Positions 2,753 through 10,751 of a stretch of 64,000 nt of DNA are shown here, piece after piece. Where the stretch lies: contig BPHV01000001.1 of NCBI GenBank assembly GCA_026003755.1, positions 1,152,393 through 1,216,392 of the forward strand. Reading direction: 5' to 3'. The stretch comes from Candidatus Roseilinea sp. (GTDB lineage: Bacteria > Chloroflexota > Anaerolineae > J036 > Brachytrichaceae). How positions within the stretch are numbered: position 1 is the stretch's first letter; every line of letters begins with the position of its first letter. The notes below the pieces were generated by a model. It was not told the origin of the DNA. It was given only the letters and a program-made list of their open reading frames with translations, and ran no database searches. A program made the translations under genes and the position numbers.

Positions 2753-4210
2753 ATGTCTGATCAACGTTCGATTCGCACTAAGAAGATCGCTGCGTCGCTG
2801 GCGGCTTTCGCCGTGCTGTCTCTGCTGGTGGCCGCGTGCGCGCCCGCTGCACCTGCTGCGCCCGCTGCACCCGCGCAACCTGCCGCGCCAGAGCAACCTG
2901 CCGAACAGCCCGCCGCGCCCACCGGAGAGGTGAAGGATTTCGTCACCTGGTACCAGTACGATGAGACGAACGTAGACCCCAAGTCTGATGAGCGCGTGGG
3001 CAACGAATACCTGCGCAAAACCATCCCGTTGTTCAACGAGGCCTTTAAGGGCAAGTGGCGCTGGGTGAATCAGCCTCAGCCGTTCGATAAGATGGCCACC
3101 AACTTGGTGGCGGCCGTCCAATCGGGAGGCGAGGTGCCGGACCTGATGCAGTCGGGCGATGCGGACCTGGTGCCGTTCATCAAGAACGGTGCAGTGCAAG
3201 ACCTCACCGACTGGGTAAAAGCACAGCCCTGGTTTTCCGACCTGGACCCTTCGGCTGTGGCTTCATGCACCGGCCCCGATGGTCGGATCTATTGCGTGCC
3301 GGTTGCTATGACGCCGCAAGTCGTATTTGTCTGGCGCGACCACTTCCCAGATGGCTATCCCAAGACCCCAGAAGCATTCAAACAAGCTGCCGAAGCGCTG
3401 AAGGCCAAGGGAGTGTATGCCATCACCTATTTCGGTTCAACCGCGTTTGATGGCGAGGGCACCACGCGCTTCACCAACACGCTGATCAAATCCTTCGGCG
3501 GCACGTTCGACGATGGCCAGGGGAACATGAAGCTGGATACGCCCGAGAACGTGGCGGCGATCACCTTCCTGCGCGAAATTATCGCCGCCGGCTACGTCCA
3601 CCCGCGCACGTGGGAGGGCACTACTACGCCATTCATCGAAGAAGAGCCGATGAAGACTGCCGAGGCTGCGTCGTTCCCCACCGGCATTTTCGGCTATCGC
3701 TACGTGAATCCGCTGAAGGCGCCGAACGGCAAGGAATACAACAAGGGCAATGAGGAGGATATGTTGGATGCCATCACCAGCGGTGATGTCTTCGTCGCGC
3801 CTTTCTTCGCCCCAGAAGGTCGCAAGCCCGGTTGTGGCACCGGCGTATCTGGGTTCGTCATCCCTACCGGCGCGAAGAATGCCGAGGCGGCGAAGGACTA
3901 CATCAACTGGATCATGACCAAGGAACAAAACCCGGATTGGGTGCTTGGCCCAGGCGGCGGCTTCCCGGCGCTGCGCTCCATGTTGCCGGAGATCGAGGCG
4001 CGCGCGCCGGTAGCCAAGGCGTTCTATGAACAGGCAGCGGCAGCGGTAGCGGCCAGCGAGTGCCGGCCATGGTATGGCTCGCTTGAGCGTCGCCAAGAGG
4101 CGCAGAAGATCATCCAGAGCGTGGTTTACAAGCTGACCAAAGAGGATCCCACGGCTGATATCTCTGCTGCGTTGAAGGAAGCCGAGGCGGAGTACAACAG
4201 GGGCAATTAA
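2753..4210 (+). CDS. Carbohydrate ABC transporter substrate-binding lipoprotein (family 1)
   Basis: A 485-residue extracellular solute-binding protein. Its lipoprotein signal has a lipobox ending LVAAC (Cys29), followed by a low-complexity Ala/Pro/Gln linker that tethers the domain to the cell surface. The rest reads as a two-lobed family-1 (sugar) binding protein with the usual hinge-region Gly/Trp-rich patches. It is the first gene of an importer with two permeases downstream, and no ATP-binding subunit follows, so a shared MsmX/UgpC-like ATPase elsewhere is likely. A good ribosome binding site precedes the ATG. A strong hairpin just after the stop codon may keep this gene more highly expressed than the permeases. 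The substrate cannot be read from sequence; an oligosaccharide is most likely. Confidence 0.9.
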   Translation: MSDQRSIRTKKIAASLAAFAVLSLLVAACAPAAPAAPAAPAQPAAPEQPAEQPAAPTGEVKDFVTWYQYDETNVDPKSDERVGNEYLRKTIPLFNEAFKGKWRWVNQPQPFDKMATNLVAAVQSGGEVPDLMQSGDADLVPFIKNGAVQDLTDWVKAQPWFSDLDPSAVASCTGPDGRIYCVPVAMTPQVVFVWRDHFPDGYPKTPEAFKQAAEALKAKGVYAITYFGSTAFDGEGTTRFTNTLIKSFGGTFDDGQGNMKLDTPENVAAITFLREIIAAGYVHPRTWEGTTTPFIEEEPMKTAEAASFPTGIFGYRYVNPLKAPNGKEYNKGNEEDMLDAITSGDVFVAPFFAPEGRKPGCGTGVSGFVIPTGAKNAEAAKDYINWIMTKEQNPDWVLGPGGGFPALRSMLPEIEARAPVAKAFYEQAAAAVAASECRPWYGSLERRQEAQKIIQSVVYKLTKEDPTADISAALKEAEAEYNRGN

Positions 4211-8282: not shown

Positions 8283-8311
8283 TTCACAATTCCACGCAAA
8301 GCCTGTAAAAT
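8283..8311 (+). promoter_or_regulatory. Sigma-70-type promoter of the trp leader
   Basis: TTCACA (8283-8288) and TAAAAT (8306-8311) are separated by 17 bases, and each is a 5/6 match to consensus. The predicted transcription start near 8318 falls just before the first conserved T-box stem I sequence. This is the only textbook -35/-10 pair I found in the window. Confidence 0.7.
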
Positions 8312-8317
8312 GGCGAC

Positions 8318-8600
8318 AGCGAAAGGCAAAGAACGAGACAAGTAACCCTGCGCGAAAGCGCACAGAGAGCAGCGCGGGTCGGTGAGAGCGCTGCGCGTGG
8401 AGCGAAGGGCGAATGGACTCGGGAGCCGCGAGCTGAACGGGGCGCCAAAATACGCTCCAAGTAGGTAAGCCGGAGCCGCCACCGTTACAAGGCGGAGCGA
8501 ATGATGGTTCGCGCAAAAGGGGCGGCTAGATCGGCCGCCCGAAGCAGGGTGGCACCACGAGCAACGCCTCTCGTCCCTCAAGATGAGAGGCGTTTTTGTT
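8318..8600 (+). promoter_or_regulatory. T-box leader, tryptophan-specific
   Basis: A tRNA-sensing riboswitch. Conserved stem I blocks are present in order: GACAAGTA near 8336, AGAGAG near 8364, GGTGAGAG at 8381-8388 and GAATGGACTC at 8411-8420. In that last block the specifier codon is TGG (8414-8416), which is Trp. The T-box sequence AGGGTGGCACCACG is at 8546-8559. The variable antiterminator base after TGG is C, which pairs with discriminator G73, the usual base in bacterial tRNA-Trp. Uncharged tRNA-Trp should stabilise the antiterminator and allow transcription of trpE-trpG. Confidence 0.95.
8563..8597 (+). terminator. T-box attenuator terminator
   Basis: AACGCCTCTC (8563-8572) pairs perfectly with GAGAGGCGTT (8585-8594), followed by a T run to 8597. 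The hairpin lies directly downstream of the T-box sequence and 22 bases before the trpE start. It is the terminator that competes with the antiterminator. Confidence 0.93.
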
Positions 8601-8618
8601 TGCATGGAGTTCTGACCG

Positions 8619-10133
8619 ATGGGACAACTGACGATCACACCCTCCCTTGAAGGGATGCGCGCGCTGAGCGAGCGCGGCAATCTGATCCCAATCTACGCTG
8701 AACTGCCGTCCGACCTGGATACGCCGGTCTCGCTCTTCCTGCGGCTGGCCGGCGATGACCCCGCCTTCCTCCTGGAGAGCGTCTCCGGTGGCGAGCAGGT
8801 CGCGCGCTACTCGTTCATCGGCGTGCACCTGCGCGAGGCGCTGGTGTTCCGCGATGGCCGACTCTACCGCCACACGCTCACGCCGGACGGGCTGACGGCG
8901 CAGCCCTTCCCCGCCGGCGAAGGCGACTTGTTAGACCTGCTGCGCCGCGAGATGGCCAAATATCGCTTCGTGCCGTCGTCACAATTGCCGCGCTTCTGCG
9001 GCGGGTTAGTCGGTTACACCGGCTACGACGTCGTGCGGCAGTTCGAGCGCCTGCCGGCCGACGCCGCCGATGTGCTGCACCTCCCCGAAGCCGCTTACTT
9101 GCTGGCCGGCACGCTGGTCGCATTCGATCACGCCCGCCACCGGTTGCTGATCATCGCCAATGCCTACCTGGACGGCGCGCCCACCCTGGTCGAAGCCTAC
9201 GAGGACGCCGTCGCACGCATTAAGACGATCCATGCGCGGTTGAGCGCGCCGATGGCTACGCTCAAGCCCAACCCGCAGGCCGTTTGCACACCGCCGCGCG
9301 CAAACAAGTCGCAGGCCGAATTCGAGCAGATGGTGCGCACGGCCAAGGAGCATATCCGGGCCGGCGACATCTTCCAGGTGGTGCTATCGCGGCGGATCGA
9401 GCGGCGCACGACGGCTCACCCATTCACCATCTACCGCACGCTGCGCATGTTGAATCCATCGCCGTGGATGTTCTACTTCAACTTCGATGGGCTGCTGACG
9501 GAAAACCTGAAGCTGATCGGCGCGTCGCCGGAGATGCACGCGCGCTTCGAGAACGGCATGGCCAGCGTGCGGCCGATTGCTGGCACGCGCCGGCGCGGCT
9601 CCAATGAACACGAGGACGCGGCACTGGCAAAAGAGCTGCTGGCAGATCCAAAGGAGCGCGCCGAACACGTGATGCTCGTGGACCTGGGACGCAACGACAT
9701 CGGCCGCGTCGCGCAATACGGCACGGTGCGCGTGCCGGAGTTGATGGTCATCGAGCACTACTCGCACGTGATGCATATCGTCAGCCTAGTGGAAGGCAGG
9801 GTGCGCGACGGGCTGGACGCCTTCGACGTGTTGCGCGCCACCTTCCCCGCCGGCACCCTCAGCGGCGCGCCTAAAGTGCGCGCGATGGAAATCATCGAAG
9901 CGTTGGAGGGCGAACGTCGAGGCATCTATGGCGGGTGTGTGGGCTATTTCTCGTTCAACGGTCAGATGGACACTTGCATCGGCATCCGCACCATCGTGAT
10001 GCGCGACGACATGTGCTATGTGCAGGCCGGGGCCGGCATCGTCGCCGATAGTGATCCCACTGCCGAGTTTCACGAAACGCACAACAAAGCTCGCGCGCTG
10101 ATGATCGCGATTGACGAAGCCGAGAATCGGTAG
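8619..10133 (+). CDS. trpE: Anthranilate synthase component I
   Basis: Converts chorismate plus ammonia (from TrpG) to anthranilate, the first committed step of tryptophan synthesis. The 504-residue length is typical. The N-terminal domain contains the LLES tryptophan feedback-binding motif (FLLESVSGGEQVARYSF). The chorismate-binding domain carries IAGTRRRG, DLGRNDIGR, FPAGTLSGAPK and the C-terminal QAGAGIVADSDP segment. The start is ATG 8619 with GGAG at 8606-8609. Expression is therefore controlled at two levels: attenuation by tRNA-Trp charging and allosteric inhibition by tryptophan. trpG follows after 51 bases; the other trp genes are not in this window. Confidence 0.97.
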   Translation: MGQLTITPSLEGMRALSERGNLIPIYAELPSDLDTPVSLFLRLAGDDPAFLLESVSGGEQVARYSFIGVHLREALVFRDGRLYRHTLTPDGLTAQPFPAGEGDLLDLLRREMAKYRFVPSSQLPRFCGGLVGYTGYDVVRQFERLPADAADVLHLPEAAYLLAGTLVAFDHARHRLLIIANAYLDGAPTLVEAYEDAVARIKTIHARLSAPMATLKPNPQAVCTPPRANKSQAEFEQMVRTAKEHIRAGDIFQVVLSRRIERRTTAHPFTIYRTLRMLNPSPWMFYFNFDGLLTENLKLIGASPEMHARFENGMASVRPIAGTRRRGSNEHEDAALAKELLADPKERAEHVMLVDLGRNDIGRVAQYGTVRVPELMVIEHYSHVMHIVSLVEGRVRDGLDAFDVLRATFPAGTLSGAPKVRAMEIIEALEGERRGIYGGCVGYFSFNGQMDTCIGIRTIVMRDDMCYVQAGAGIVADSDPTAEFHETHNKARALMIAIDEAENR

Positions 10134-10184: not shown

Positions 10185-10751
10185 ATGATCATCGTCATTG
10201 ATAACTACGATTCGTTCACCTATAACCTGGTGCAATACCTGGGCGAGCTAGGCGCGGAATTGCGCGTCTTCCGCAACGACCAAGCGACGCTCGATCAGCT
10301 CAAAGCGCTCAAGCCCAGGGGGTTCGTGATCTCGCCGGGGCCGGGCACGCCGCAGCAGGACAGCGGCATCAGCAACGATGTGCTGCGCGAGTTCAGCGGC
10401 CAGGTGCCTATCCTTGGCGTGTGCCTGGGGCAGCAGTGCATCGGACATGTGTTCGGCGGCAGCGTCGTCCGCGCGCCGCGGCTGATGCACGGCAAAACAT
10501 CGCTCATCCACCACAACGGGCGCGACCTGTTCCGCGGCCTGCCCAACCCGTTTGAGGCAACGCGCTACCATTCGTTGATCGTAGCCGAGCCGCTGCCGCC
10601 GGCGCTCGAGGTCACCGCGTTTACCGCAGAGGGCGAAGTGATGGGCCTGCGCCACAAGCAACATCCCACCTTCGGCGTGCAGTTTCATCCCGAGAGCATT
10701 TTGACCCAGAACGGCAAACAGATCATCGCCAACTTCCTCGCCATGGTGTGA
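10185..10751 (+). CDS. trpG: Anthranilate synthase component II, glutamine amidotransferase
   Basis: A 188-residue class I glutamine amidotransferase that supplies ammonia to TrpE. The nucleophile Cys80 sits in VCLGQQC and the His/Glu pair in FHPES. The N-terminus [11 protein letters not shown] is typical of TrpG/PabA. Its position directly after trpE under the Trp T-box argues for TrpG, though it might also serve p-aminobenzoate synthesis. A GGTGGA stretch precedes the ATG. The phosphoribosyltransferase gene often fused to or following trpG is absent here. Confidence 0.95.

Follow-up and report, generated by a model that had tools for sequence, protein, structure and literature searches.

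The closest described systems are the tryptophan T-boxes of Dehalococcoides: Wels et al. (2008) report trpE T-boxes in two genomes of this genus, and tryptophan T-boxes there stand before trpE and trpB-like genes (PMC2494555). The leader analysed here lies in a window of 64,000 nucleotides from the genome of Candidatus Roseilinea sp. and shares with these elements phylum, amino acid and gene; Dehalococcoides is a member of another class, and the Roseilinea genome has Rfam-detected tryptophan T-boxes at trpEG and trpS. Since trpE T-boxes of Chloroflexi have been in print since 2008, the remark in the first-pass annotation that they are less studied in this lineage is fair but weak, and the window leader is ordinary in kind. 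It has the architecture of the long stem I transcriptional type described by RF00230, with stem I motifs, specifier, stem II, stem IIA/B with the F box, stem III between RRRxG and AA flanks, a UGGN antiterminator and an overlapping terminator, and departs from that model in a sub-threshold score, stems of high G+C and an added small hairpin at 8497–8512. Partially tandem T-boxes also exist, with a mode of action given as not known (PMC7583486). The interest of the present locus lies mainly in the contrast between its leader and relatives that bear a nested hairpin in stem III.

The complete T-box first annotated at 8283–8600 is confirmed at these coordinates, well in excess of chance expectation: promoter, stem I motifs, UGG, F box, stem III, UGGC and terminator are all present on the plus strand. 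A sigma-70-like promoter (TTCACA-17-TAAAAT, 8283–8311) has 10 of 12 consensus matches; this pattern occurs once against a mean of 0.1 across 50 shuffles, and the five closest relatives (L052–L056) have TAAAAT or TAGAAT as their −10 hexamer. The distal stem I motifs AGAGAG (8364–8369) and GGTGAGAGC (8381–8389) align with letters that the Rfam consensus conserves in distal stem I. The specifier UGG (8414–8416), within GAAUGGA at 8411–8417, pairs with the anticodon CCA, and the stem IIA/B element has its F box, CCGTTA, at 8482–8487, located by the RF00230 alignment and scripted landmark placement. Between the F box and stem III the sequence holds the extra hairpin GCGAA-TGATGG-TTCGC (8497–8512); many of the other Chloroflexota tryptophan T-boxes examined have a GGGUAUCG...CGUACC hairpin at this position. 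The region at 8515–8543 comprises RRRxG (AAAAG, 8515–8519), an 8-bp stem III (8520–8540) and AA (8542–8543), and a stem III so flanked belongs to the sensing domain (PMC7583486).

The two alternative helices follow immediately. The antiterminator AGGG-UGGCACC-ACGAG...CUCGUCCCU (8546–8578; −7.2 kcal/mol alone) opens with the core at 8546 and holds UGGC (8550–8553), the complement of the tRNA-Trp 3′ end G73-CCA. The intrinsic terminator hairpin at 8563–8594 (−21.5 kcal/mol), with a T-rich tail to 8601, has the arms AACGCCTCTC and GAGAGGCGTT, which form the 10 Watson-Crick pairs of the original description, or 13 counting G-U. The fold of 8555–8600 has a z of −6.8, with none of 200 shuffles equally stable. 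Antiterminator and terminator are mutually exclusive through their common nucleotides, the terminator 5′ arm overlapping the 3′ strand of the antiterminator at 8570–8578; such an overlap is expected where the tRNA has to pay for the antiterminator. A GGAG at 8606–8609, likely the trpE ribosome-binding site, lies outside the terminator. ARAGORN found no tRNA in the window.

A covariance-model search had been suggested as a check, and RF00230 does match end to end at 8320–8581 (219 of 219 model positions, 77.2 bits, E = 4.5e-17), though under the gathering score of 93. This score is a curation threshold and not a structural feature; a default Rfam scan of the window returned no entry because the leader falls below it, and an E-value threshold was used for the scan instead. 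All six T-boxes found in the Roseilinea genome by the RF00230 search score below 93, and of the 14 control genomes searched, five gave matches, B. subtilis among them, two of these five exceeding the cut-off.

The tRNA set of the genome (3.34 Mb in 5 contigs, 95% complete) was compared with the leader. Of the tRNAs obtained from 46 matches, a single one is tRNA-Trp, with anticodon CCA and G73 after a 7-bp acceptor stem, so that UGGC pairs fully with GCCA; this is the discriminator base that the earlier reading demanded. The specifier UGG is cognate to trpE, and its matching anticodon is the one present. With specifiers taken by eye from the alignments and genes named from open frames by family features that we presume to be diagnostic, specifier and UGGN agree with a tRNA present in all six Rfam-detected T-boxes of the genome: valS (GUC/UGGU; tRNA-Val GAC, A73), trpE and trpS (both UGG/UGGC; tRNA-Trp CCA, G73), serS (UCC/UGGC; tRNA-Ser GGA, G73), thrS (ACC/UGGA; tRNA-Thr GGU, U73) and leuS (CUC/UGGU; tRNA-Leu GAG, A73). 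The trpS specifier sits one base further from GAA than that of trpE. On the minus strand of L006 (1501–1891), a tRNA-Ala (GGC) gene is followed after about 37 bases by the leuS T-box. The single trpA of Roseilinea is on contig C3, where the Rfam search detected no T-box.

Directly after the leader come trpE (8619–10133, +; anthranilate synthase component I, 504 aa) and an open frame at 10185–10751 (+) whose GVCLGQQ and HPES we take as marks of trpG, anthranilate synthase component II. This order supports the proposed linkage of trpEG to a tRNA-Trp leader, through which the two genes would respond to tRNA charging. We take LLES and NPSPWM of TrpE to be feedback residues. Both are kept, as had been noted: LLES (aa 51–54) and NPSPWM correspond in the alignment to LLES and NPSPYM in anthranilate synthases of known structure (7bvd, 5cwa). 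The protein is 99% identical to TrpE of Candidatus Roseilinea sp. NK_OTU-006 and 97–69% identical to that of twelve more loci titled Roseilinea, Thermoflexales, Anaerolineae or Chloroflexi/Chloroflexota, which places the window in this part of the Chloroflexota.

Conservation of the leader among these relatives is extensive. A T-box core lies upstream of trpE in 12 of 13 loci with TrpE identity of at least 69%, and the window and the 12 aligned family relatives each have a single core and a single terminator. Specifier UGG and UGGC are invariant in the window and in all 12 family relatives having the leader, and the arms of stem III and of the terminator vary across this set yet still pair. 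Such compensatory change is seen in the arm pairs GGGCGGCT/GGCCGCCC, GAGCAATGCG/TGCGTTGCTC and GGGTGATGAACTG/CAGTTCATCGCCT, which differ among relatives and nonetheless pair; for L063 the best stem III helix found by script is short and its register uncertain. The exception is L058 (about 2950–3003), of the same genus, which has no T-box core upstream of trpE; here trpE directly follows a frame that we take to encode an acetyltransferase. This relative has lost its trpE T-box, and as it has trpE without a core, the element is not indispensable. Two T-boxes were found in its genome (G041), at places equal to those of the same-genus genome G008; of the nine genomes of the genus covered by the T-box count, seven have six T-boxes, one has five and G008 two. 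In G041 and G008 the T-boxes precede a trpS frame and a gene with, by eye, a GUC specifier and UGGU, a combination that suggests valS.

Beyond the family, a T-box core was found upstream in 24 of 80 TrpE loci, against one match in 959,108 control bases from the same loci. Twenty-three of the 24 are titled as Chloroflexota groups. The remaining one, L087, comes from a contig recorded under the name Slackia heliotrinireducens (Actinobacteria) and has a UGG/UGGC T-box before trpE that resembles those of Chloroflexota. GAATGG is present upstream in all 12 core-bearing TrpE loci outside the window's family. UGGU replaces UGGC in four of the 24 trpE leaders (L067, L068, L069 and L084); at L084 the tRNA-Trp has G73, so the fourth position would be a wobble pair, and TBDB reports U at this place with G73 in 46% of tryptophan T-boxes (PMC7778990). 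A tRNA-Trp pattern search in 13 relatives identified tRNA-Trp in six genomes, with G73 in all; the genomes of L067–L069 yielded matches that did not qualify as tRNAs, and in four genomes nothing fitted the pattern. All 41 genomes of the group searched, that of Roseilinea included, have at least one T-box.

We propose, with confidence close to certainty, that the leader at 8320–8601 is a tryptophan T-box riboswitch of the canonical transcriptional kind and would control trpEG. Its tRNA binding, antitermination and physiological response are what we infer from these features. The nascent leader RNA would bind tRNA-Trp by pairing the specifier UGG with the anticodon CCA; when the tRNA is uncharged, its GCCA 3′ end would pair with UGGC at 8550–8553 and hold the antiterminator at 8546–8578, allowing RNA polymerase to read through into trpEG, and when it is charged the stronger hairpin at 8563–8594 would form and transcription would terminate. 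An element of other specificity can be imagined, since AATGGA holds ATG in a neighbouring frame and a methionine T-box could read AUG one base earlier, but all three genes called as tRNA-Met carry A73, with which UGGC does not pair as it does with the G73 of tRNA-Trp; trpE is the gene that follows, and trpS too is preceded by a UGG/UGGC T-box. We attach only a vanishing probability to this specificity.

Nor do we think it at all probable that the leader acts on translation: antisequestrator T-boxes exist (PMC7583486), yet here the antiterminator is overlapped by a strong terminator with a T-rich tail, and neither helix includes the GGAG at 8606–8609. That the leader is a decayed, non-functional T-box could be argued from its score under the gathering cut-off and from the loss in a same-genus relative. 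The specifier, F box and core are nevertheless intact, as is each of the two alternative helices, and across 12 relatives the arms of stem III and of the terminator have changed in a compensatory manner, which makes decay very improbable.

In several relatives a second hairpin with a T-tract lies between the F box and the core, that is, within stem III. The pattern GTGAGGCTGG-N10-40-TTTTTTGTT gave 42 matches in 38 of 396 genomes of the class, spanning 23 families as counted from the matches listed, with no control match among these; in the window's own family it was found in none of 28 genomes. Thirty of the 42 loci were read, and in every one a T-box core begins 48–84 bases past the motif start; GAATGG[AG] is upstream in 26 of these 30 and missing in four, and trpE is downstream of ten (tblastn). 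In a draw of 400 genomes from the phylum seven match the pattern; one of these, the candidate G553, is from outside the class. The nested hairpin is carried by L065, L071, L072, L076, L205–L234, L243, L253, L261, L267, L285, L296, L303, L307, L310 and L320, some of which coincide, and is mostly preceded by GUGAGGCUGGC, with UCAC or UCAU inside.

A pattern-independent survey covered the 87 of 97 T-boxes whose places were listed, in 16 genomes of 16 other families; a core was found in 84 and three were dropped. GAATGG[AG] is present in 18 of the 84, and ten of the 18, from ten different genomes and families, bear a terminator-like hairpin in stem III, against none of the 66 surveyed T-boxes lacking GAATGG[AG]. 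The hypergeometric chance of this split, calculated by hand and uncorrected for shared descent, is about 2e-8; the GAATGG[AG] test misses forms such as GAATTGG, and a few tryptophan T-boxes may be among the 66. Two of the eight UGG T-boxes without the nested hairpin (L245 and L280) show a similar hairpin with a broken T-tract. Genes recognised by eye behind 14 survey leaders include trpE, trpS and trpB-like genes. Some places are common to both sets (L227/L310, L228/L267 and L231/L296).

The nested hairpin is a real helix. Over 33 cases with 24 distinct 5′ arms, the basal six positions form 6.0 pairs on average, a value high by construction, against 3.0 when the arms are swapped, and it is the swap that shows the arms to change jointly. 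Counted in hairpins alone, UCA[CU] occurs in 29 of 34 nested cases; at the same loci it is present in 3 of 43 hairpins of other terminators and in 2 of the 69 terminators of standard T-boxes. The fixed GUGAGGCUGG just upstream contains GUGA, to which UCAC is complementary. UCA[CU] is absent from L215, L216, L219, L224 and L285; the last of these has GUGG with CCAC instead, in a 7-bp GUGGGGC/GUCCCAC helix, and L307 has GUGAGAC with GUUUCAC. Extended pairing of GUGAGGC with GCC(A)UCAC gives a nested mean of 6.26, with 30 of 34 at five pairs or more, against 5.15 (72 of 112 at five or more) for other terminator hairpins and 4.02 (33%) for shuffles, a modest gain over the control hairpins; we prefer the UCA[CU] enrichment to this score because many control hairpins also reach five pairs.

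Directly after the GUGA strand stands UGGC in 32 of 34 cases and UGGU in the other two, and either fourth letter can pair with G73; this base was left free in the search and UGG imposed, and plain sequence conservation would look identical. The nested order of a helix strand, then UGGN, with the far strand in a terminator, has the appearance of the arrangement of a T-box antiterminator. In an alternative pairing, the outer strand AGGCU can join AGCCU-AA, or a sequence close to it, that immediately precedes the standard core (AGACU/AGUCU in L307). Two other candidates were set aside: a leader peptide with tryptophan codons before the nested terminator, as the frames differ between L072 and L076 and L071 has no ATG there; and a generic antiterminator pairing with the nested 5′ arm, as the arms differ widely and the preceding motif is fixed.

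The nested hairpin is likely to be at least an enforced pause or an early terminator in stem III, the site of a proposed polymerase pause that would time the binding of tRNA (PMC6197855). To a bolder reading we give about even weight: that the tryptophan T-boxes of many Anaerolineae outside the window's family have two tRNA-responsive decision points on one stem I. The nested module would then run from GUGAGGC through a UGGC/U that pairs with the GCCA of tRNA-Trp to the terminator hairpin and U6GUU, with UCAC in the hairpin pairing back to GUGA; GUGAGGCU would later re-pair with AGCCUAAC to give a normal stem III for the second, standard antiterminator and terminator. One stem I would thus feed two switches in series, and the leader in the window would represent the simple version of this tryptophan T-box. 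The nested terminator with its UGGC/U could be a case of a partially tandem T-box, with the difference that its first module lies within stem III and, L285 partly excepted, lacks ACC and CGUCCC of the core; in contrast, a single core and a single terminator make up the leader in the window and its 12 family relatives. No description of the nested form was found in the accessible parts of the open literature searched, a scope outside which the likeliest sources, the surveys of 2008–2009, fall.

The window adds a clean tryptophan T-box regulon, comprising trpEG and trpS, from a lineage of Chloroflexota that has been little studied, with agreement between specifier and discriminator over all six Rfam-detected T-boxes of one genome. 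The comparative result on the stem III hairpin matters more than the window element itself. It provides dozens of natural tryptophan T-boxes whose stem III holds a terminator-like hairpin, beside relatives without one, the window among them, and this contrast makes both the timing of the stem III pause and the action of partially tandem T-boxes directly testable.
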